Part shown: positions 32,118-44,610 of the stretch, in pieces
Numbering within the stretch: the stretch's first letter is position 1
Layout of the letters: each line of letters begins with the position of its first letter
Assembly: GCF_039645985.1 (NCBI RefSeq)
Contig: NZ_CP147919.1
Coordinates: 2,542,001-2,606,000, forward strand
Direction of reading: 5' to 3'
From: Sulfurimonas sp. HSL3-7
GTDB taxonomy: Bacteria; Campylobacterota; Campylobacteria; Campylobacterales; Sulfurimonadaceae
Length of the DNA: 64,000 nt
Translations under genes and position numbers: made by a program
The notes under the pieces: model-generated
The model's input: only the letters and a program-made list of their open reading frames with translations
Told to the model about the DNA's origin: nothing
Database searches by the model: none

Positions 32118-32158
32118 TGGTGCGCCCGGAGCGATTCGAACGCCCGACCGCTGGTACC
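32017..32158. repeat. right copy of the 142-bp duplication (overlaps intact tRNA-Arg)
   Basis: Partner of 30731-30872. Beyond 32158 the tRNA continues here but not in the left copy. The two copies are offset by exactly 1286 bp without indels. Confidence 0.85.
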
Positions 32159-32194
32159 GCAAACCAGTGCTCTATCCAGCTGAGCTACGAGCGC
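32118..32194 (-). tRNA. tRNA-Arg (GCG)
   Basis: 77 nt with encoded CCA on the minus strand. Acceptor GCGCTCG / CGGGCGC, D-arm AGCTCAGCTGGATAGAGC with the Arg-typical A20, anticodon stem CTGGT / ACCAG around loop TTGCGGT (anticodon GCG), and T-loop GTTCGAATC. Confidence 0.9.
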
Positions 32195-32203
32195 GCACAT
32201 AAA

Positions 32204-32288
32204 TGGTGGTGAGACCAGGAGTCGAACCTGGGAACCCATAGGGAGCAGATTTACAGTCTGCCGTCGTTGGCCACTTGACTATCTCACC
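32204..32288 (-). tRNA. tRNA-Tyr (GTA)
   Basis: 85-nt class II tRNA on the minus strand. Acceptor GGTGAGA / TCTCACC, anticodon loop CTGTAAA (GTA), a long variable arm, T-loop GGTTCGACTCC, CCA encoded. 9 nt upstream of tRNA-Arg. Confidence 0.94.
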
Positions 32289-32318
32289 GTCTGTTGTGTT
32301 AAAAAGATCCGAAATCGA

Positions 32319-32395
32319 TGGTGCCGACACGAGGATTTGAACCCCGGGCCTGCTGATTACAAATCAGCTGCTCTAGCCAACTGAGCTATGTCGGC
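32319..32395 (-). tRNA. tRNA-Thr (TGT)
   Basis: 77 nt on the minus strand. Acceptor GCCGACA / TGTCGGC, anticodon stem CTGAT / ATCAG around TTTGTAA (anticodon TGT), T-loop GGTTCAAATCC, CCA encoded. First of a Thr-Tyr-Arg tRNA cluster. Confidence 0.94.
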
Positions 32396-33507: not shown

Positions 33508-34458
33508 TCAGATAGATATAAAATATTTTTCTACTGTTTTGTCCCATTTATCATTGTTCAATACCTGATCAAAAGGATTTTGAATCATTATAGGTTTATA
33601 CCCTTCTTTATTCATTTCAGATCTATTGACTAAATATAAGTAATAGTCATCCTTTTTTATTTTAGCTACTTCCATTTCATTTTTTGACCAATAAAAAGAC
33701 TCCTTCCCATCATACGATTTTACCTCGATATATTTATCCAAAAATATAGAGGTATCTGTTTGATAAGATAAAATATCATAACCAGCACTTGTATCAACTT
33801 CAGATATGATTTTTATATTCTCTTGTTTAGGATGTTCTTTTCTCTGCACCTTTTCAAACTCTAATACAAACTCTTCAGCTTCTATCCCAATTATTTTTTG
33901 CTTTTTCTGTAGATTTTCTAAATTTATTAATGAGCAATTCCTAATTTTAGACTGTTCAATAAGAGGTATCGCAACTTCAAAAAACCATTCTATAAAGTCC
34001 TTATGCAATACAAGATGATTTTCGATCAAGTCATCTCTAAAGAATACTCCTAGACTCATCAATAGGTTTCTCAATGATGAAAACTCGAGTCTTATCAAAT
34101 TATTCATAATGAAGATCAATTCAGAGTTTTGGTCATAAACAAAATTGTTATTGTTAATAAAGTTATGTAGTTCTTTATCTTGTGAAAGCCTTGAGAATAA
34201 TAATGTGGTGAAATCTTTTGCAAAATCATCTGAATCAAAAAGCTTAACTACAGACAACACACCGTTTCTTTTAATGATTCCTAGATATTCCAGTAAAACA
34301 ATTGCACCTTTAAATGAAGTGCTAAAGGAATATTCTTGTGATGAACAAGCATGACGTAAATCTTCATAACTTGCTGCTCCATTTGAAAGAAGTCCTATAA
34401 TATATAATATCTGACTTTTAGTTCCTAGTCTATCCTGATCTAGCAGTTTTTCTATCAT
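33508..34458 (-). CDS. DUF3883-like putative nuclease, last gene of the defence operon
   Basis: 316 aa. The N-terminal 70 residues (KSQILYIIGLLSNGAASYEDL) look like a winged helix. The C-terminal 100 residues match the DUF3883 / NO VEIN C-terminal type: AGYDILSYQ supplies the Asp and DKYIEVKSYDGK the ExK of a PD-(D/E)XK nuclease, followed by FYWSKNEMEVAKIKKDDYYLYLVNR. It is the best candidate for the DNA-cutting subunit. The start overlaps the helicase by 29 nt and is preceded by AAGGGA. AT-rich codon use unlike the core genes. Confidence 0.72.
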   Translation of the reverse strand: MIEKLLDQDRLGTKSQILYIIGLLSNGAASYEDLRHACSSQEYSFSTSFKGAIVLLEYLGIIKRNGVLSVVKLFDSDDFAKDFTTLLFSRLSQDKELHNFINNNNFVYDQNSELIFIMNNLIRLEFSSLRNLLMSLGVFFRDDLIENHLVLHKDFIEWFFEVAIPLIEQSKIRNCSLINLENLQKKQKIIGIEAEEFVLEFEKVQRKEHPKQENIKIISEVDTSAGYDILSYQTDTSIFLDKYIEVKSYDGKESFYWSKNEMEVAKIKKDDYYLYLVNRSEMNKEGYKPIMIQNPFDQVLNNDKWDKTVEKYFISI

Positions 34459-36439
34459 GATAGTCCCTTATTATTGCTCTAATATCATCCTCATCACCAT
34501 CGCTTGAGTCCTCCATATTCAAATTCAACAATGGAATGTCTTCACCCTCAATCAGCTCTAACATTCTTTTTTCTTTTTCTAATATCCTACTATGTATAGT
34601 CTGATCAACAGTGTCTGTAGAAAGAAGATAATAATAGTTGACTACATCTTCTTGATCAAGACCATATCTATGGACCCTATCTTTTGATTGCATATACATA
34701 GATGCATTGAAGTTTTTTTCTAAATAGATTGCATTGTGACAAGCCTTATGCAAAGAGATAGACTCACCTACTGCAAATGGATTTGCAATAATTACTTTAA
34801 AAGGACAATCTGACCTATGAAACCTTTCAATAATCTTTTCACGTGTCAATATCTCTTCTGGAGTATCATCATTTTCATTCGGAGTACCCCCAAAGAGCAA
34901 TTCACATTCAATACCTAGGTCCTTCAGATAATCTTTTAAATCAAAAATGTTCTGAACAAAGATAGTCCAAATTATCACTTTTCCATCTGCACCATCTTTT
35001 AAAAATATTTTATTTAGAAGTTCTTTGATTGCTAGGAACTTTGGAGGTATCTCATCCTGCGGGTTATATGATTTAATCAACTTCATGACTTCTTTGTCAT
35101 CAACATTTAAATTACTCGACAATCCCTCTTCATCTAAATAACTATCTAATGCCTTATTCAGTAGTTTTGGATTGGTAACACACTGCATCAAACGAACTAA
35201 TTTAGCTTTTTGTAATTTGTTTATAAAACTATCTGTACTTGTCTCTTGCTCAAAATAATCAATATACTTTTTTTCTATATATTCATATATCACTTTTTGA
35301 CTTTTACTCATTGAGACCATAATCGGTTCATTCTCAATTGGATCCGGTAAATTAAGGTCAGACTTTTTTACCCTAATAAAGAATGGAGAGATATTCTCTA
35401 TCAATATTTTTATATCTTGCAATGCCTTAGGTGTCTTTTCCTCTGATAACATCTGTAAATAATTAACGGGAAAACCAATAACATTTTTAGATGGCCAAAT
35501 AAACTTATAAAGATTATATAAGTCTTGATAACCATTAGGTGCGGGTGTCCCTGTCAACACAACTCTAGCCGTAGCATACTTTGCAATAGAAAGAATAGCT
35601 TCTGCTTGCTTTCCACCCGTCACATTTTTGATTTTATGTGCTTCATCCAGTACTACCATCACCTTGTTACGGTTCAAGTAAGCTTTGATATTCTCAATAT
35701 CTGATTCACTTGATGCACTCTGGTATGATATTAATGTTATCTCTGTATAGTCATCTGAATAAAAATGTGCTTTTCTATCATAAGGTGCTACACCAACTAA
35801 TTCACGTACTGATGTCCCTTTACCAAAACACTCAACGTATTCATTTTTCCAAGGAGCAAAGGCCGCTAATGGACAAATAATCAATAGTCTATCAACGTGC
35901 TTACTATTCGTGATGGGAAGGCTTTTAAGGTAAGCATATGCACTATAGACGATTGATGTCTTTCCCGCACCCGGGACTGAAAAATTACAAGCATTCTGTG
36001 AGTATGCTAAATGGTAACCTGAAAGTAACTGTAGATCATATAGCTCACGTTTTAACTTACTTTCAATAACATTGGTGAAATTTTCAAAGTCATCATCCCC
36101 ATGTTCGTTGTTTCGGATTCTTTTTGCTTTGATAGAAAACTTGTTAAAGTTGTCATTTTCCCGATCCATATCATGCACAAGATCCTGAGCTTTGTCTGTC
36201 TTTTGATAAGGGATACTAAATTTATCTAATAACCTCAATACTGCAGCATATTGTTTCTCTTCATCATCATATTCGTTTGGATATTTTTCTGTACTAAAAG
36301 GAATTACTATTTGATTTACATCATTAAAAGAAGCACCAATACTTTCAAAATTAGACCTTGCTCTGCGTTTATTCTTAATAGCTTCCAAATCACCTTTTAA
36401 AACAAAAGCATTATCGAGAACATCAATTTGTATATTCAT
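34430..36439 (-). CDS. SNF2-family DNA translocase/helicase
   Basis: 669 aa. Superfamily 2 motifs in order: I FSVPGAGKTSIVYSA, II VVLDEAHKIKN, III LTGTPAPN, then IANPFAVGESISLHKA (V) and QSKDRVHRYGLDQ (VI), which is the SNF2 form (QxxxRxHRxG). The N-terminal 130 residues are unassigned and may recognise the target. Such enzymes move along DNA using ATP, and in restriction systems they drive cleavage by a partner. It lies 4 nt after the ParB-like gene and overlaps the nuclease gene. Confidence 0.85.
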   Translation of the reverse strand: MNIQIDVLDNAFVLKGDLEAIKNKRRARSNFESIGASFNDVNQIVIPFSTEKYPNEYDDEEKQYAAVLRLLDKFSIPYQKTDKAQDLVHDMDRENDNFNKFSIKAKRIRNNEHGDDDFENFTNVIESKLKRELYDLQLLSGYHLAYSQNACNFSVPGAGKTSIVYSAYAYLKSLPITNSKHVDRLLIICPLAAFAPWKNEYVECFGKGTSVRELVGVAPYDRKAHFYSDDYTEITLISYQSASSESDIENIKAYLNRNKVMVVLDEAHKIKNVTGGKQAEAILSIAKYATARVVLTGTPAPNGYQDLYNLYKFIWPSKNVIGFPVNYLQMLSEEKTPKALQDIKILIENISPFFIRVKKSDLNLPDPIENEPIMVSMSKSQKVIYEYIEKKYIDYFEQETSTDSFINKLQKAKLVRLMQCVTNPKLLNKALDSYLDEEGLSSNLNVDDKEVMKLIKSYNPQDEIPPKFLAIKELLNKIFLKDGADGKVIIWTIFVQNIFDLKDYLKDLGIECELLFGGTPNENDDTPEEILTREKIIERFHRSDCPFKVIIANPFAVGESISLHKACHNAIYLEKNFNASMYMQSKDRVHRYGLDQEDVVNYYYLLSTDTVDQTIHSRILEKEKRMLELIEGEDIPLLNLNMEDSSDGDEDDIRAIIRDYHDRKTARSG

Positions 36440-36443
36440 TCTT

Positions 36444-37730
36444 TTAATCTCTTATATCGACAATTTTAATAAATCCCTCTGCTAGTTTTCTAATTTCATG
36501 ACTTATTTCCCTGATTTCTTTTCCTCTAAAAGCATCGATATCTGTATTGACTGATTGCAAAGTCCGTCTTGCTCTCTCTAGTAATTCCATTGGTGAATTT
36601 GCCTCTTTCTGATCATCAAGGTCTCTTTTTGTTCTACCTATATTTTCTTTCATTGAAGGCTCGACTTTTGACTTCCAGTCACTATCTCTCCCTCTTATGA
36701 TATCTTCTATTTCTTCACCTGGTCTTTCAGACCTAAGTTCTTCCAAAGACTTTTCTTGATCATTTATTGGGTCAATCCGTTCATCGTATCTTTTCACAAA
36801 TTCTCGCCAAACTTTTTCATGGCTAAAAAAACCTTGTCCTTTCGCAGGATTACCTATATCTCTTATATTGTGAGCTGTTCTAAAACCTGCCCTAATATAA
36901 TCAAAATAAATATTTTTGAGATCATCGATATCATCTTTTTCAGGTTGCCAATCCCTTCCTCGTATTCCCTTTCCAGTTGTCTGTGTTTCCAAATATCCTC
37001 TTAAATCCACAAAAGGACCTTCTACAGTTTCTTCATTTAACCTAGTATACATACCACCGTAACCATATGCTTCTAAATATTCTTCCATAAGTGCAAGAAT
37101 CTCTAAGTAATTCTTTATATCTGAAGGCTTTTTACCCATCATCTTCGCAATCTCTTCATTTGAAAAGTCCTGAGAAAGTTCACTACACTTTAAATATTGT
37201 TCGATAGCATTGTAGTCTACTTTTTCATCGACCCCCATTTGATACATCGTCTCAAGTTTTCTGATTTCTTTTGGATTGGATTGTAATGTTTCATCGAGGA
37301 CAATAGCTTTAAAGTAGGTTGGTGTGCTTTTTGTTTCCTCAGCGATTTTTTTAAGTAACATACATCGTCGGTTTCCATCTATAACTACCCCATCTTTAGT
37401 AACAATTCCGAACTCAAGCTGACCATTTTCAATAATATTTTTCTTGGTCTCTTTGTTCCTGTTTACTTTAGAGTTCCATAAAAAATCAACTATTAGTTTT
37501 TCACCCTTTTTCGTTGTGGCATCTATTGGTCCATGTTGTTTTTCATATGTTTTTACAAAGGTCCCTATTCGACCATTATATTGATTAAATATCAATAGCT
37601 CAACAGGAATCTCAAAAACTGGTAGTTTTTGAACTTTATCCATATATCTTATCTCTTTACTTGAATAAGGATTGTCCTTTTTTCTATCCATTAGTTCCTG
37701 AATCTTTTGTGTTCTTAATTTTGCATCCAT
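36444..37730 (-). CDS. ParB/Srx-fold protein in the defence operon
   Basis: 428 aa. The segment ENGQLEFGIVTKDGVVIDGNRRCMLLKKI matches the ParB N-terminal (ParB/sulfiredoxin) core, in which GNRR replaces GERR. An HTH-like part follows (FSNEEIAKMMGKKPSDIKNYL), then a charged helical C-terminal region. In chromosome partition ParB-fold domains bind CTP and DNA; related folds also occur in phosphorothioate and restriction operons. No ParA is nearby, so partition is unlikely. TAGGGA precedes the ATG. Confidence 0.72.
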   Translation of the reverse strand: MDAKLRTQKIQELMDRKKDNPYSSKEIRYMDKVQKLPVFEIPVELLIFNQYNGRIGTFVKTYEKQHGPIDATTKKGEKLIVDFLWNSKVNRNKETKKNIIENGQLEFGIVTKDGVVIDGNRRCMLLKKIAEETKSTPTYFKAIVLDETLQSNPKEIRKLETMYQMGVDEKVDYNAIEQYLKCSELSQDFSNEEIAKMMGKKPSDIKNYLEILALMEEYLEAYGYGGMYTRLNEETVEGPFVDLRGYLETQTTGKGIRGRDWQPEKDDIDDLKNIYFDYIRAGFRTAHNIRDIGNPAKGQGFFSHEKVWREFVKRYDERIDPINDQEKSLEELRSERPGEEIEDIIRGRDSDWKSKVEPSMKENIGRTKRDLDDQKEANSPMELLERARRTLQSVNTDIDAFRGKEIREISHEIRKLAEGFIKIVDIRD

Positions 37731-37779
37731 CTATCATCCCTATTTATTAGTAAATATATGTATTGTAACTAAATAGTTT

Positions 37780-39414
37780 TCATCTGTTTATATAAATTAT
37801 CTTGAGTTCATTTAAAACATAAAAACCTACAGCAATAACATAAGGAAGACCTGTCAACTCATTATCTATAAAGATATTTTTATTAAAGTCCTCTTCCACA
37901 ATATTATTATCAATAAACTCACGTATCAAGTTAAGCAATTCGTACGGTCCAATATCGTTATTTATTTTTCTTTCTTTCTCAGTCTTACAATGATTTTCTT
38001 GAAGACGAGTTGCATCCGTCAATTTGTATTTGAAGGACTCAATAAAGCTTTGCATTACTTTTTGATGTTCAATATTAAACATTTCTAATACAATTTTAGG
38101 CCTATATACTTTTGCTCTAGGACCTTGACTTCTATGTATTTCAACTTCCCATTTAAAGCTACTATTTTCAAAGTCAGAGTTATAGTTTGTTAGCTCCACT
38201 CGAAACACATTACGTATAAGATAGGGGATATGATATTTGAATTTTGCAGTAATTTTTTTGGGCTTTTCTATATTCAAATGGAAAATATCTAAATTCAAGT
38301 TCATAAAGTCATCAAGAGCTTTATCATTAAATTTAATAGGAATATAAGTTGTCGGGACTTCACACAAATTGTATTCTGCAATGGACTTCGCAATCGCAAA
38401 TGACATTTTTGGAGGTACGGAATTTCCTACTAGTTTGTATTTAATACTTTTACTCTTCCCATAAAATCTGTAATCTAAGGGATAGCTCATAATACAACCT
38501 ATTTCTCTCACTGTCGGTACTCTATATCTATTTTCCTCTGGAATGTAAGGGTATATAATAGACTCTCGAGCGCATGAAGACATTGTTGCCATAATAGTTC
38601 TTGATGGCTTATCTAAATTTTCAGGAAAAGACATCTTTCCCATATACCCTTTATCTTGTTTCAGCCTTTTTGCTTTTTTCCATTCAAAATCCGCAACTTC
38701 CATTACATAGTGATGATCAGTGATATCTTTAGATACCAAGTCGAAGTCATTATAATTAGGATCTTGTATTGTTTCTTCTAAATTATTTTTAGGAGGTTTT
38801 AGAAATTTCAAAACATCATTTACTGTTCTTGTATCTTCATCATTGACTATGGTTTGTTCAGGTTCCGGAAAGTCACCACAAAAGTACCTTTTTCTATTTG
38901 AAGCAACACCAAAATATTTTGAATTATAAACTTTTGATGATGGATATTTCACCTTCAGTTTGCCCTCACTATCTATCCCTAATTCTTCGTATGTGTACTC
39001 ATCTTTTATATATGAAACAACATTAGGTACATTTTCTAAAACCCAATGCTTCAGTATTGAGTCTTTCTTCATCTTTTTTCTTGCAATAATTCTTAGATAA
39101 GCCTCAATTAATTGTATACCTAACGACTTGTCAGCTTTACCTGATCTATTAGAATTTGAGAAAGATGTACATGGCGGAGAGCCTATAATCACTTCCGTAT
39201 CTGGAATAAGTTGATGGAATTCATCATCAGGAAGGTTAGAAATTTGTATTACATCACCTAGATATGTATTTGCATTTGGATGGTTAGCATGATGCGTTGT
39301 CACTGCTGGTTGCCATCGATCCACAGCAAATACAACCTCAAAGCCCGCTAATTTAAAGCCTTCTGAAAAGCCCCCTCCACCACAAAAAAAGTCTGCTACC
39401 TTATATTTTTTCAA
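37780..39414 (-). CDS. dcm: DNA (cytosine-5)-methyltransferase
   Basis: 544 aa. C5-methylase motifs: I ADFFCGGGGFSEGFKLAG, IV IGSPPCTSFSNSNRSG with the catalytic Cys, VI VLENVPNV, VIII-like FGVASNRKRYF, and X YKLVGNSVPP. A C-terminal extension of about 180 residues after motif X is not recognised and might bind partner proteins. It begins at a TTG codon. Unlike a type II pair, no simple restriction endonuclease is next to it; a Vsr gene is upstream and the ParB-like gene 49 nt downstream. Confidence 0.9.
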   Translation of the reverse strand: MKKYKVADFFCGGGGFSEGFKLAGFEVVFAVDRWQPAVTTHHANHPNANTYLGDVIQISNLPDDEFHQLIPDTEVIIGSPPCTSFSNSNRSGKADKSLGIQLIEAYLRIIARKKMKKDSILKHWVLENVPNVVSYIKDEYTYEELGIDSEGKLKVKYPSSKVYNSKYFGVASNRKRYFCGDFPEPEQTIVNDEDTRTVNDVLKFLKPPKNNLEETIQDPNYNDFDLVSKDITDHHYVMEVADFEWKKAKRLKQDKGYMGKMSFPENLDKPSRTIMATMSSCARESIIYPYIPEENRYRVPTVREIGCIMSYPLDYRFYGKSKSIKYKLVGNSVPPKMSFAIAKSIAEYNLCEVPTTYIPIKFNDKALDDFMNLNLDIFHLNIEKPKKITAKFKYHIPYLIRNVFRVELTNYNSDFENSSFKWEVEIHRSQGPRAKVYRPKIVLEMFNIEHQKVMQSFIESFKYKLTDATRLQENHCKTEKERKINNDIGPYELLNLIREFIDNNIVEEDFNKNIFIDNELTGLPYVIAVGFYVLNELKIIYINR

Positions 39415-39436
39415 TTATTAAATCCATTTACTTTAA

Positions 39437-39892
39437 CTATTTATTAGAAGTATCTAACATCTCTCGTATTTTAGCGACAAATATCATAGGATCTTGTTTT
39501 AGTTGACATTCCCAAATAACTAATGTCCTCCAATCATCTTTTTCCAACTGTTCTAACTTCTTTTTATCTCGTTCTACATTCTTTTTGAATTTATCTTCCC
39601 AGAATTCAATATGTACTTTCGGCATAGACGGATTGCAATGTGGACACCTATGCCAAAAACAGCCATTAATAAAAATTGCAATTTTTTTCCCCGGAAAAGC
39701 AATATCAGGTCTTCCCGGAGCCTTCTTCCAATGTAGTCTGTATCCTCTTATTCCATTATGCCAAAGCGCTTTTCTTAAAAGTAACTCTGGCTTTGTATTT
39801 TTTGCTTTAATCGCACTCATGTTTTTTGAAATTTGTTCATTTTTAGGAATTGGAGCTCGACCATCTCTAGAGTATTTCTTTTTACTATTCAT
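39437..39892 (-). CDS. vsr: Vsr-type very short patch repair endonuclease
   Basis: 151 aa. Vsr hallmarks are NMSAIKAKNTKPELLLRK, GYRLHWKKAPGRPDIAFPGKK with the catalytic Asp, and INGCFWHRCPHC with the zinc ligands. Vsr nicks T:G mismatches left by deamination of 5-methylcytosine, so it normally travels with a C5 methylase, as here. ATG at 39892; an upstream TTG two codons earlier is also possible. First gene of the operon. Confidence 0.9.
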   Translation of the reverse strand: MNSKKKYSRDGRAPIPKNEQISKNMSAIKAKNTKPELLLRKALWHNGIRGYRLHWKKAPGRPDIAFPGKKIAIFINGCFWHRCPHCNPSMPKVHIEFWEDKFKKNVERDKKKLEQLEKDDWRTLVIWECQLKQDPMIFVAKIREMLDTSNK

Positions 39893-40061
39893 TTGCAAAT
39901 AATAACATTTTAAGTAAAAAAACCAACGAACCCATAGTAAGATATGAACTTGATTATTAAATCATAAGAGATATTATGAAAATTGAAAAAAGAGGACAGT
40001 TGCCTGAGGAAAAGGGGACAGGCTACTTTTTCTAAAAAAGTGGCAAGAAAACTATGTTTCT

Positions 40062-40173
40062 CATTCTTTTCTTTTTCACAAGAAAAGAACCAAAAGAAAA
40101 TCGTCGTTGCGCGAATCGCTCGCTGCTCCCGGCTTTTTGCCTCCGCAGCGGCTTTCAAGGCACGCTTAACGAC
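40062..40173. repeat. 112-bp direct repeat, copy 1
   Basis: Begins CATTCTTTTCTTTTTC, contains the inverted repeat TTCTTTTCTT / AAGAAAAGAA, and ends GCACGCTTAACGAC. Differs from copy 2 (40417-40528) at two positions that I can see (CAC against CGT near its start). Confidence 0.9.
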
Positions 40174-40416
40174 CTTCTGTCTATTGATTTATCCGCTAGC
40201 TAATTAGAGTTTAAGAGCTTCGACACGTCGAAACGCATCAATAAAATGGACCTTTGGGTCTTGAGCGCGATCCTTGTAAGCCATCCCGGAGGCAGTAGTG
40301 CCGGGAGGGATGAGCGTTTCGCGAAAGGCCGCTTTTTACGCTACTTTTTTTAAAAAAGTGGCAGAAAACAATTTGCTTTACAAAAGCAGATTCATCTGTA
40401 GATGAAACAGATTGTT

Positions 40417-40528
40417 CATTCTTTTCTTTTTCGTAAGAAAAGAACCAAAAGAAAATCGTCGTTGCGCGAATCGCTCGCTGCTCCCGGCTTTTTGCCTCCG
40501 CAGCGGCTTTCAAGGCACGCTTAACGAC
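40417..40528. repeat. 112-bp direct repeat, copy 2
   Basis: Same orientation and length as 40062-40173, 355 bp away. Lies just downstream of the stop of the RhuM-like gene. The repeats probably belong to a dispersed intergenic family. Confidence 0.9.
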
Positions 40529-40573
40529 ATTCTGCCACTTGAATTAATGCGCTTCGGTATACCGAAGCGGTGA

Positions 40574-41422
40574 TCAGCTGTAGATCTCCTTCACCCGCTC
40601 CGTTAGCGCCAGCGAGTCCTTCTCCATCTTTGAAAAAGCAAACCATTTCCTGCCCAAGTCTTTCAGTGAAGCGCCGATGTGATAGACCTCATCGTCATCG
40701 ATGATGAGAAACCTGTCATGCGCATCCGCAAACTTCCGGATCTCTATAGCGGGATACTGGGCATTGTGCTTTTTCAGATCAAGCGCCAGTTTTTTCGGGA
40801 CGCTTTTCGTGTAGATAACGGCACTGCACCCCTTGGCGCGTTTGTCCAGCATGGTCAGCACCGATTCGTCGACATAGTTGTCGATGAGCACGATGGAGCG
40901 TTCAGCACTTTTGATGAGATTGGAAACGAACACATAGGCATCAAAGATCTGCCCGTCGTAGAAGATGCCCTGCTTTGGTCTGAGGGATTGATTTTCCATC
41001 GCGTTAAATACCTGTTCTAACTTTTTGTCGGTCAAAACCTGTTTCTCTTCCAGCACATCCAAGCGTTTTTGATCTAACGTATACCCTTTTAAAAGATGCT
41101 GTTTCAATACACTTGTCGCCCAGATACGAAACTGAACACCCTGCTTTGATTTCACTCTATATCCAACGGAGATAATGACATCAAGATTATAACTATTGAC
41201 ATTATACGATTTGCCATCGCTCGCAGTTGTCCGGAAATTCCGGACAACTGCATCTTTCTCCAATTCACCCTCTTTAAATATATTATTGATATGTTCCGAA
41301 ATGGTCTTTTTGCTCTTGCCAAAAAGTTCTTCCATCTGTTTTTGATTTAACCAGACGGTTTCATCTTCCATCGTTGCATCTAAAACCACCAAACCATCAT
41401 CATACATGATAATGTCACTCAC
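40574..41422 (-). CDS. RhuM-family protein with a PLD-like C-terminus
   Basis: 282 aa. The N-terminal 120 residues are the RhuM (virulence RhuM) type: VWLNQKQMEELFGKSKKTISEHINNIFKE, VVRNFRTTASDGKSYNV, YNLDVIISVGYRVKS, FRIWATSVLKQHL. The C-terminal part has KFADAHDRFLIIDDDEVYHIGASLKDLGRKWFAF read in pieces, a single phospholipase-D-like HxR...D motif. RhuM proteins are typical of genomic islands; function unproven, DNA-related activity likely. Probable GTG start at 41422, overlapping the stop of the radC remnant; ATG at 41407 is the alternative. Confidence 0.82.
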   Translation of the reverse strand: MSDIIMYDDGLVVLDATMEDETVWLNQKQMEELFGKSKKTISEHINNIFKEGELEKDAVVRNFRTTASDGKSYNVNSYNLDVIISVGYRVKSKQGVQFRIWATSVLKQHLLKGYTLDQKRLDVLEEKQVLTDKKLEQVFNAMENQSLRPKQGIFYDGQIFDAYVFVSNLIKSAERSIVLIDNYVDESVLTMLDKRAKGCSAVIYTKSVPKKLALDLKKHNAQYPAIEIRKFADAHDRFLIIDDDEVYHIGASLKDLGRKWFAFSKMEKDSLALTERVKEIYS

Positions 41423-41690: not shown

Positions 41691-41696
41691 TATACT
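41691..41696 (+). promoter_or_regulatory. -10 box TATACT of structured RNA element, copy 1
   Basis: TATACT occurs at the same distance from the conserved AGTACGTACG start in both copies (compare 44115-44120), while the sequence further upstream has diverged. Conservation of just this box supports an active promoter. Confidence 0.55.
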
Positions 41697-41702
41697 AGTT
41701 AT

Positions 41703-42185
41703 TAAGTACGTACGGTTATTTGAACAAAGGTACCTGAAAAGGAAGCCCATGATACAAAAACGCGTTTTGACGGTTTTGGGTCTGGAGACGCTGATGGAAG
41801 CAACCCCTAACAGAGAGTTGGGATTGAGAGAAAGAGCGACGAAAGATCGGGTGAAAAGGTAAGATGGCCTCTGTGAAGAGCTGAAGGCAGGTCCATGCAG
41901 GTTGACTGCGGGGTGCGCACGACAATGTTGCACCTGTTACGAGGCCTTATGCGCTTTGGCATTCACAGACAAGATGGCTGGCAGGCCCATTTCTTAATCA
42001 GAAACGTCGCACCGAAGAGCGGCTTGCGACAACTGCGAGGCCCTATGCCCCTTCGGGTCCGCCATCTGGCAAGTGTTGTTAACACCGCCTGCGACCATAA
42101 ACCGCCTCAGGGAGCATGAGTGCTCCCGGGATGCCGCGTGAAGCGGCATCTTCAATCCACTTCTCCACGTTTTCCCCTGTTTTTA
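41703..42185 (+). ncRNA. candidate structured non-coding RNA, copy 1 (about 480 nt)
   Basis: Homologous over its length to 44127-44610. Stems are conserved while loops vary. GTCGCACCG / CGG-CT-TGCGAC (42006-42030) has loop AAGAG here and ACTAA in copy 2. GCAG / CTGC has loop GTTGA against CTCTA. GTGTT / AACAC (42073-42085) corresponds to GGTGTC / GACGCC in copy 2, with compensatory changes. GGGAGCA / TGCTCCC (42110-42127) is followed by GATGCCGC / GCGGCATC (42130-42150). The element ends in a pyrimidine-rich tract (TTTTCCCCTGTTTTTAC). The gene to its right is on the other strand. No known RNA family recognised. Confidence 0.7.
41749..41862 (+). CDS. conserved short ORF (37 aa) inside structured RNA copy 1
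   Basis: AAAAGGAAGCCC precedes the ATG at good spacing. The product begins MIQKRVLTVLGLETLMEA and contains TPNRELG. Copy 2 has an ORF in the same place with TVLGLExLxxAxPNRELG in common. In the shared core, five of eight base differences I count fall at third codon positions, which suggests, weakly, protein-level conservation. Confidence 0.4.
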   Translation: MIQKRVLTVLGLETLMEATPNRELGLRERATKDRVKR

Positions 42186-42274
42186 CTTACTGACCAAGTT
42201 TGACCTCAAACCCTTTGGAGCGGATGATTTTCCGAACTTCTGCGATAAAAGGGCACCCGTATGGCGGCAGGCGG

Positions 42275-43801
42275 TCAGCACGCCTCCCCGCTGCAGGGAA
42301 TGCGGATCGTAAAGAGGGCACCGCTTTTGTCGTTTTTCACCGAGATCGATCCGTTGAACTTCTGCTCGATGATCTGCTTCGTCATGTAGAGCCCCAGCCC
42401 GGTCCCCTGGCTTTTATGCTTGGTCGTAAAATAGGGGTCGAATACCTTATCGATGATCGCTTCGTCGATGCCGCCGCCGTTGTCGCAGATCTCGATGACA
42501 TAGTCCGATCCCTCGATGAACCCCCGGCATTTGATGGCCCCCTCTTCGACCCTGTTCTTCTTGATGGCATTGGCCGCATTTGAATAGATGTTGATCAGCG
42601 CCTGCTTGAGGTTGTTCAGATAACCGCTGATCAGTACATTTTTCAGATCGGTCTCGTAACGGATATGGTTGCCCATGATAGAGCTTTTGACGAGGATCTG
42701 CAGTGATCTGTCCATGTCACGCATGCAGAACGTGTTGTGCCCGTCATCCTCCTGGTAATAGAAGCGGAAATCGTCGATCGTGTCGGAGAGGTACTGGATG
42801 ATCTCGCTGCAGTGGGCCTGAAATGCTTCAAAATCGTGCGCACGGTCCCCGCTTTTTTCCATCATCATCTTGACCGTCATGTCGGTCAGCAGCAGCCCCA
42901 GGGTGTTAAGGGGCTGGCGCCACTGGTGTGCGATGTTGCTGATCATCTCTCCCATCGCCGCAAACTTGTTCTGCTGGTAGAGCATATTGTCCTTTTGGCG
43001 GCTCGCCTCGATCTCCTTTGAGATCCGCTCTTCGAGCTCCCTGTTGATCGATTCGAGCTTCCTCTCCGCTTCGAGCTGTTCCGTCATATCGAGACTGAGG
43101 CCGACCAGACCGCTGACACCGTGCTCTTCGTCTTCGACCCGCGTCTTTACGATCAGGACTTCGTGCACTTTGCCGTCGACAAAAGGGATCTTCTCATACG
43201 AGAGGTGAGGTTCACTCTGCTGCAGGGCCGCTTCATCCGAGCGCATGCAGCTTTGCGCGGTTTCCGGAGGGTAGAGCGGTTCGTAATGGGGGACGGAGAG
43301 GAAGGTCTCCTCTCTGATGCCGATGGCATCGCAGAAGGCCTTGTTGACAAACTGAAGTCTCCCGGACGCATCCTGTGACCAGATGCCGATGGGCGCCGTA
43401 TCGAGGATCGTCCGGAAGGTGAGGCGTTCATGCGGGGCCATGATCTCTCTTGCACGCGCTTCCTGCACCCCCGTGCAGCGTGAAACGATCTGGCCGCCGG
43501 AGAGTCTGTAGAGGTAGCCCTCCTGCCACTGCCTGGCGTAACCGACGCAGGGGACCAGGGTGATCTCCTGCGGTTCTCCCGTACGGTAGACCTCTTTGAA
43601 CAGATCAAGCAGGGACCTCGTTGCATTGACCGGGAAAAGTGTGGACAACGCTTCGGATACAGACTCTCCCTCGGCAAAGTTGCAAAGGCCCTTTGCTTTT
43701 TCATTGAGGTAGACGACTTTAAAGTCATCGCCCTTTTCGAGCGGTTCGTAGACAGTGATCCCGACATCGATCAGGCCAAAAAGTTCTTCAAAATTGAACA
43801 T
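42275..43801 (-). CDS. PAS-domain sensor histidine kinase (cytoplasmic)
   Basis: 508 aa from the ATG at 43801 (AAGGAG 4 nt upstream; 44 open codons further up are not used). Two PAS-like domains span about residues 1-110 and 125-245. A coiled coil follows, then a phospho-acceptor domain with FAAMGEMISNIAHQWRQPLN (His in the H-box) and an ATPase domain with the N-box (IYSNAANAI), G1 (DNGGGID), F (DPYFTTK) and G2 (GTGLGLYM). No membrane helices. The IAHQWRQPL type is common in Campylobacterota orphan kinases. No response regulator is adjacent; instead the two RNA elements flank it. Confidence 0.88.
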   Translation of the reverse strand: MFNFEELFGLIDVGITVYEPLEKGDDFKVVYLNEKAKGLCNFAEGESVSEALSTLFPVNATRSLLDLFKEVYRTGEPQEITLVPCVGYARQWQEGYLYRLSGGQIVSRCTGVQEARAREIMAPHERLTFRTILDTAPIGIWSQDASGRLQFVNKAFCDAIGIREETFLSVPHYEPLYPPETAQSCMRSDEAALQQSEPHLSYEKIPFVDGKVHEVLIVKTRVEDEEHGVSGLVGLSLDMTEQLEAERKLESINRELEERISKEIEASRQKDNMLYQQNKFAAMGEMISNIAHQWRQPLNTLGLLLTDMTVKMMMEKSGDRAHDFEAFQAHCSEIIQYLSDTIDDFRFYYQEDDGHNTFCMRDMDRSLQILVKSSIMGNHIRYETDLKNVLISGYLNNLKQALINIYSNAANAIKKNRVEEGAIKCRGFIEGSDYVIEICDNGGGIDEAIIDKVFDPYFTTKHKSQGTGLGLYMTKQIIEQKFNGSISVKNDKSGALFTIRIPCSGEAC

Positions 43802-44114
43802 GGGACTCCTTGTGTGACATTTTAACGTATAAGTAAAAAATATAGAACACCTCGAAATACCCTGAATCGGCATCTGCTCTGCGTTTATTCCAACGGGGAG
43901 AGGCCGCTTTTTCGTACTGACGAATCCGATCACCCTTATCCCTGCTCTTTTCGGCCTTTAAGCGAAAAGCTTCCCTTTCCCTCTTCTCAGCCCTTTTCAG
44001 AAAAACGGGTCTTTCGCCGCCGCAAAATGGCTTCTCAGATGTCAGTTGTCGCAAAATTACCACTTATAGATAGAAAATTTTTTCCATTTAAACATTTATT
44101 CAGATTTCCCGATC

Positions 44115-44120
44115 TATACT
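44115..44120 (+). promoter_or_regulatory. -10 box TATACT of structured RNA element, copy 2
   Basis: Counterpart of 41691-41696, followed by ACCTATAGTACGTACG. Confidence 0.55.
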
Positions 44121-44126
44121 ACCTAT

Positions 44127-44610
44127 AGTACGTACGATACTTTGAGACAAGGTACCTAAAAGGAAGCCGATGAAACACAAATGTTTTATGACGGTTTTGG
44201 GTCTTGAGCCGCTGACAGATGCAGCCCCTAATAGAGAGTTGGGGTATGGGCAGATGCGCTGCGAGAGATCGGGTAAAAACGTGAGATGTCCTCTGTAAAG
44301 AGATGAAGGCAGGTCAACGCAGCTCTACTGCAATGGTGCACACCGGGAGTGATGTACCGATAATGAGACCATGTGCGTTTCACCGATTTTCAGACAAGAG
44401 GATTGGCAGGTCCATTTCATAAACTTGAAACGTCGCACCGACTAACGGCTTGCGACAACTGCGAGACCGGATGCCGCTTCGGGTTACGCCATCTTACAAG
44501 GTGTCTAAGACGCCGCCTGCGACCATAAACCGCCGCAGGGAGCAACCGTGCTCCCCAGATGCCGCATGAGACGGCATCTTCAATCCACTCTTCTGCATTT
44601 TCCCCGTTTT
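44127..44610 (+). ncRNA. candidate structured non-coding RNA, copy 2 (about 480 nt)
   Basis: Second copy of the element at 41703. Conserved stems: 44432-44456 (GTCGCACCG with CGG-CT-TGCGAC), 44500-44514 (GGTGTC / GACGCC), 44538-44555 (GGGAGCA / TGCTCCC, loop ACCG instead of TGAG) and 44558-44578 (GATGCCG / CGGCATC, loop CATGAGA instead of a longer stem with GTGAA). It ends in the same CTTCAATCCACT and TTTTCCCCGTTTTCACTTA. The adjoining sequence between 43802 and 44114 shows no gene. Confidence 0.7.
44170..44298 (+). CDS. conserved short ORF (42 aa) inside structured RNA copy 2
   Basis: AAAAGGAAGCCG precedes the ATG. The product begins MKHKCFMTVLGLEPLTDA and contains APNRELG. The C-terminal part differs from copy 1 and includes Cys residues. 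Overlap with structured RNA means the sequence could also be conserved for folding. Confidence 0.4.
   Translation: MKHKCFMTVLGLEPLTDAAPNRELGYGQMRCERSGKNVRCPL

Follow-up and report, generated by a model that had tools for sequence, protein, structure and literature searches.

The 64,000-nucleotide (nt) stretch of Sulfurimonas sp. HSL3-7 DNA analyzed here (contig NZ_CP147919.1, positions 2,542,001 to 2,606,000 of the forward strand; referred to as the window) contains two copies of a structured RNA element. The element belongs to an RNA family with a covarying fold, a short open reading frame (ORF) under coding selection, and a conserved, promoter-like -10 box. The reading that we favor, with a probability of about 0.5, is that of a free-standing RNA coding for a small peptide, whose translation is held in check by the folding of the RNA itself and whose structured 3' domain probably serves a function of its own.

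The two copies share 78% identity over about 500 nt by blast and alignment (expectation [E] value, 6e-103), and the 2.87-Mb genome contains exactly two. The initial annotation of the window had described both stretches as homologous along their length, and this comparison bears that out; the compensatory pairs that it quoted (GTGTT/AACAC against GGTGTC/GACGCC) are likewise present in the alignment. In each copy, the RNA runs from the palindrome GTACGTAC to the end of a terminal hairpin, a length of about 450 nt, and a histidine-kinase gene on the - strand sits between the two + strand copies. Of the 3' end said to be common to the copies, the double hairpin stood, and the pyrimidine tract after the hairpin occurs in both window copies but in none of the other homologues. 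Three covariance models were used: R1, built from the 5' 150 nt; R2, a second model that was run on 228 genomes of the bacterial family; and R3, built from genera g7 and g9 only, with no window sequence included. The features of the two copies are listed below, where SD denotes the Shine-Dalgarno sequence and H1, H2, and H4 are predicted helices.

41691..41696, + strand: -10 box TATACT of copy 1 (direct reading)
44115..44120, + strand: -10 box TATACT of copy 2 (direct reading)
41706..42150, + strand: copy 1 of the structured RNA (alignment; model R2, 143.6 bits)
44128..44578, + strand: copy 2 of the structured RNA (alignment; model R2, 155.3 bits)
41706..41713, + strand: 5'-end palindrome GTACGTAC of copy 1
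44128..44135, + strand: 5'-end palindrome GTACGTAC of copy 2
41742..41777, + strand: SD hairpin (H1) of copy 1, GAAGCC (41742-41747) with GGTTTT (41772-41777); the loop holds the start codon
44163..44198, + strand: SD hairpin (H1) of copy 2, GAAGCC (44163-44168) with GGTTTT (44193-44198); the loop holds the start codon
41749..41862, + strand: short ORF of copy 1, 37 codons, MIQKRVLTVLGLETLMEATPNRELGLRERATKDRVKR; its C-terminal part is out of frame with that of copy 2
44170..44298, + strand: short ORF of copy 2, 42 codons, MKHKCFMTVLGLEPLTDAAPNRELGYGQMRCERSGKNVRCPL
44200..44270, + strand: helix H2 inside the ORF of copy 2, GGTCTTGAGCCGC (44200-44212) with GCTGCGAGAGATC (44258-44270)
44225-44228 with 44241-44244, + strand: hairpin CCCC/GGGG enclosed by H2 in copy 2
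41859..41868, + strand: 5' arm of long-range helix H4 in copy 1, last ORF codons and stop region
42061..42070, + strand: 3' arm of H4 in copy 1
44281..44290, + strand: 5' arm of H4 in copy 2, codons preceding the stop
44488..44497, + strand: 3' arm of H4 in copy 2
42130..42150, + strand: terminal hairpin GATGCCGC/GCGGCATC of copy 1 (helix 18, with two-sided changes)
44558..44578, + strand: terminal hairpin of copy 2, terminator-like (covariation test)

The fold is supported by covariation. RNAalifold, applied to eight homologues, gave a structure of 98 base pairs, 28 of which have two-sided changes. Over the whole structure there were 58 two-sided changes, compared with 20.1 in shuffled alignments, and none of 500 shuffles reached as high a number. 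The description of stems that are kept and loops that vary is matched by the 90.9% of cells that are paired; when the partners were slid by 1 to 3 columns, pairing dropped to about 40%, a control that is biased in the structure's favor because this alignment is also the source of the structure. In the 5' domain (H1, H2, and the ORF hairpin), 10 more diverse sequences yielded 21 two-sided cells (8 of 18 pairs) versus 6.7 after shuffling. The clearest helix, H4, joins the last codons of the short ORF to a segment about 200 nt downstream in the 3' domain. Among 13 homologues from six genera, H4 was 90.8% paired, with arms picked by hand from the alignment in a common register, which favors pairing; all 10 of its pairs have two-sided changes, and its two-sided cells number 34 versus 11.0 in shuffles. 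The initial annotation had made its proposal depend on covariation in a wider alignment, and the covariation persists there. The folding energies of the single sequences are unremarkable (z scores of -1.3 and -2.6 for the window copies), so the structural evidence is the covariation.

The covariance models of Rfam 15 gave no match over the element, whether in the window at the gathering score and at relaxed E values or at seven homologous loci at E values up to 1, and those of the large RNAs OLE, ROOL, and GOLLD gave none in the window or at these homologous loci. This agrees with the initial annotation, which had recognized no known RNA family in either copy.

That annotation had also implied a purely non-coding RNA, and here it has to be corrected, since the 5' third of both copies holds a conserved short ORF under purifying selection. 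An AAGGA-type SD sequence and a start codon that opens a frame of 33 to 45 codons are present in all homologues with an intact 5' part; in the truncated homologue L027, the frame has 23. The predicted peptides include MIIKIILSALGLGSFVKARSRKKLSVIWLESETRSGEKRRDLL in L022, MIKLIFMALGLDSFFKVHSREWSVIALYNENRSGEYRRDFL in L072, and MIKTFSQALRSFIEAHSNQKLSAIKLYNEPNFFKIDRFL, with a TTG start, in L077. When six close pairs were pooled, the ratio of nonsynonymous to synonymous differences (pN/pS) was 0.35 in the ORF frame (Fisher test, 1.6e-5), whereas the other two frames gave 1.26 and 0.86, and differences at codon positions 1, 2, and 3 numbered 18, 15, and 35. Conservation of RNA structure alone would not be expected to give such frame dependence. 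The peptide also remains recognizable where the RNA motifs change (L072, L074, L075, and L077). Judged from these comparisons, the 5' third encodes a conserved peptide under purifying selection. Searches of Pfam, NCBIfam, and PDB with the peptide returned no match at a meaningful E value; the peptide family appears new relative to these databases.

These results bear on the view that the element is a functional structured non-coding RNA, a scaffold or something ribozyme-like, whose ORF is incidental or merely attracts ribosomes. Strong covariation across the whole length would suit such an RNA, and the conserved protein pattern largely overlaps the RNA motifs GGYTTTGGGT and GATCGGGT. However, the purifying selection is frame specific, the SD sequence and start codon are retained throughout, and the frame of L077 stays open despite loss of the GATCGGGT motif. 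We consider this view improbable.

From the arrangement of helices and ORF, we infer how the RNA would be expressed, locked, and released and that both the peptide and the 3' domain would act. Given the position of the -10 box, transcription would begin at or beside the self-complementary sequence of 8 to 12 nt. The primary transcript would then fold such that the SD sequence pairs with codons 8 to 11 (H1), H2 encloses the middle of the ORF, and H4 ties the last ORF codons to the 3' domain. Because of these three contacts, the closed fold is predicted to restrain translation. Some conserved hairpins do sit within the short ORF. A translating ribosome would have to open H1, H2, and H4, making translation and the closed fold mutually exclusive, and processing, a ligand, or a partner might open the RNA and so release the peptide. 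Because compensatory changes also occur beyond the coding part, in the 3' domain (about 300 nt), that domain probably serves a purpose besides control of the peptide.

Several results weigh against this reading. The SD hairpin varies on one side only (GGTTTT/GGCTTT), and its support therefore comes from conservation, not from covariation; in L075, the pairing requires a shifted register. When folded in isolation, copy 1 (57 nt) and the g10 copies favor other local pairings, which likewise cover parts of the SD-start region. For H4, a duplex search with the ORF end across the full 3' region gave no significant result in most sequences, the evidence for that helix being the covariation. AlphaFold gave no confident fold for the peptide (mean predicted local distance difference test score, 65). 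Finally, a one-base difference in copy 1 shifts the frame of the C-terminal part of its ORF, and given this shift, copy 1 may be diverging.

A lock of this kind could also belong to a type I toxin mRNA, in which the peptide inhibits growth, the fold keeps the full-length mRNA inert in the manner of aapA or hok, and control comes from an RNA antitoxin, antisense or otherwise. The logic of the lock is that of the aapA mRNAs from the same phylum (PMC6733600). The peptide, at 33 to 45 amino acids (aa), is of a fitting size, and in several genera it has a hydrophobic N-terminal stretch (best 15-residue Kyte-Doolittle mean, 1.6 to 2.1 in g7 and g8), but the g10, g1, and g9 peptides are weakly hydrophobic (0.35 to 1.1). 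In four genera, a TATTAT hexamer coincides with the stop codon on the opposite strand and is a candidate antisense -10 box, yet it is absent from both window copies, g10, and L022/L023. The element is duplicated in one genome, this one, but is present in single copy in all other carriers. Moreover, the conserved structure reaches far past the ORF and so exceeds what a lock needs. Taking both sides together, we regard a type I toxin as unlikely.

The 3' domain invites another explanation, namely, a trans-acting, dual-function regulator resembling RNAIII, SgrS, or VcdRP, in which that domain would recognize target mRNAs by base pairing and the peptide would be an additional product. Its own -10-like promoter, its intergenic site, and the combination of a peptide with a conserved non-coding domain fit this idea, for which there are known precedents, such as VcdRP with its 29-aa protein (PMC8672173). 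On the other hand, no conserved unpaired seed was identified in the RNA. Most dual-function regulators are also smaller and less folded than an RNA of 390 to 470 nt with long-range helices. This explanation, too, seems rather unlikely.

A -10-like hexamer with at most two mismatches to TATAAT lies 6 to 9 nt upstream of the palindrome in 17 of 17 sequences, for which reason the RNA should start at or just before GUACGUAC. In the window, the TATACT boxes had been reported at the same place before each copy, which is true to within 2 nt (9 and 7 nt from the palindrome). The palindrome itself comprises 8 to 12 nt, and its center changes symmetrically from GTACGTAC to GTAGCTAC; the latter center is carried by L074, L075, and L077, where the fuller form, GUAGCUAC, is still palindromic. 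No partner for it inside the RNA was consistent among the homologues. It is possible that the palindrome is an RNA homodimer site or a DNA operator at the start site. A role as a genome-wide operator was rejected, as each of the ten other genomic GTACGTAC sites falls within an open frame and none has a promoter-like setting. A symmetric change is what a homodimer would require, and it would also follow from a palindromic operator at the start site. One can conjecture, as a long shot, that the RNA dimerizes via this self-complementary 5' end and encodes its own peptide partner, with the peptide binding the folded RNA or the dimer and with translation, folding, and assembly coupled. Upstream of the element, imperfect dyads lie over the -10 box in L004 (GAGTTATCATGACTC), L024, and L072 (AGTAAACTTACT); they may be a regulator site.

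Homologues were gathered in several ways. A blastn search of 200 genomes of the bacterial family gave partial matches in six other genomes, and once these were oriented, the similarity spanned the region from palindrome to terminal hairpin. Further homologues came from R1 and from scanning 85,000 species genomes for a pattern, all in Campylobacterales metagenome assemblies (labeled Sulfurimonadaceae, Sulfurimonas, Arcobacter, Helicobacteraceae, or Campylobacterales). With R2, the element was found in 18 of the 228 genomes, representing 6 of the 18 genera of the family Sulfurimonadaceae, a family name taken from how two matching assemblies were labeled. R3 recovered g5, g8, g10, and window copy 1, and since no window sequence had entered that model, this is independent support for a single RNA family. 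The RNA measures about 390 to 470 nt across the family, and every other carrier has one copy per genome. The three models found nothing credible outside the bacterial family in about 400 genomes of the phylum or order; the phylum matches L017 and L018 and the order match L064 were set aside as chance matches to AT-rich stretches or ordinary genes. As far as these searches extend, the element is limited to a single, sulfur-oxidizing bacterial family.

The genes next to the element are conserved within subgroups (for example, the ilvC side in L020, L025, and L028) and differ between genera, and the downstream genes are often convergent. No conserved gene on the same strand downstream, as would be expected of a cis-acting leader such as a riboswitch or attenuator, was found among the homologues; the downstream genes vary. 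No transposase lies near the homologues, which occupy ordinary intergenic gaps. The pattern of neighbors identifies the element as a free-standing intergenic RNA gene rather than a leader or an insertion sequence. A decayed insertion sequence, which the initial annotation had named among the findings that would overturn its proposal, or another mobile repeat would account for the two copies flanking the histidine-kinase gene in direct orientation. Against this stand the single intergenic copy in all other genomes, the neighbors retained within subgroups, the covariation, the coding selection, and the lack of any transposase; DNA, peptide, and pattern searches of phage, plasmid, and IMG/VR viral contigs gave chance matches only. 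We judge such an origin highly improbable. In a comparison of vacant sites within the genus, the genes around the element were not shared.

Three observations concern individual homologues. In L027 (1020-1150), a g10 relative, the copy is cut after about 130 nt and runs into a patatin-like gene region; this decaying copy indicates that the element can be lost. In L024 and L075, which represent two different genera, an mnmH/selU-like gene is found within a few kilobases of the element, perhaps a remnant of where the element ancestrally lay. In g10, the element has an ArfB-like ribosome-rescue gene close by (L004, 758-1171), which is not conserved elsewhere.

Other features of the window lie near copy 1. 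Adjoining it, positions 34430-41422 encode a SNF2-type helicase, a ParB-like nuclease-domain protein, a DNA cytosine methyltransferase, a Vsr-type endonuclease, and a RhuM-like gene, likely a defense island, with gene names taken from reading the translations. A tRNA cluster is located at 32121-32395. At 39910-40513, two - strand ORFs open with nearly identical 25 residues (KAAAEAKSREQRAIRATTIFFWFFS), which suggests that an intergenic sequence is repeated there, with two copies present.

A literature search found no description of this RNA family. Its kind, a small-peptide mRNA with a translational lock or a dual-function RNA, is known; on the available evidence, the RNA family, the peptide, and the helix from ORF end to 3' domain are new. 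New bacterial RNA families with comparable covariation are uncommon. With a peptide frame inside the fold, a single molecule allows study of the joint evolution of RNA structure and reading frame and of translation held back until the RNA opens. A toxic peptide would make this a further type I toxin family, belonging to a free-living group within the phylum that includes Helicobacter and Campylobacter; with a non-toxic peptide, the element would represent a new kind of peptide-coding structured RNA.

The hok mRNA is highly folded, is about 400 nt long, encodes a peptide of about 50 aa, and uses long-range pairing. The RNA described here is likewise a folded small-peptide mRNA with long-range pairing, although, unlike hok/Sok, it has no Rfam match over the element. 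As in RNAIII, SgrS, and VcdRP, one RNA contains both a small ORF and conserved non-coding sequence, but the element differs from them in lacking an Rfam match and in its lineage.

Closer in phylum are the Helicobacter aapA mRNAs, in which hairpins that sequester the SD sequence by pairing it with early codons, together with a long-distance interaction, keep the toxin mRNA inert (PMC6733600). Like aapA/IsoA, the element combines a short peptide ORF with a predicted pairing of the SD sequence with early codons, a predicted standalone transcript, and a long-distance interaction that links the 5' coding region to the 3' region (PMC6733600, PMC8322730). A short ORF with its SD sequence sequestered by mRNA structure, the arrangement typical of that system, is predicted here mostly on the strength of sequence conservation, less of covariation. 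The element differs from aapA/IsoA in its covarying 3' domain, which spans about 300 nt, and in its long-range arm, which pairs with the last codons instead of the SD sequence; no conserved antisense promoter was found, and the peptides are not known to be related.

The OLE, ROOL, and GOLLD RNAs form homo-oligomers (PMC12286853). The element resembles them in its length of hundreds of nucleotides and its conserved, intricate fold, and its 5' palindrome might allow oligomers to form; unlike them, it is shorter and carries a conserved coding ORF.

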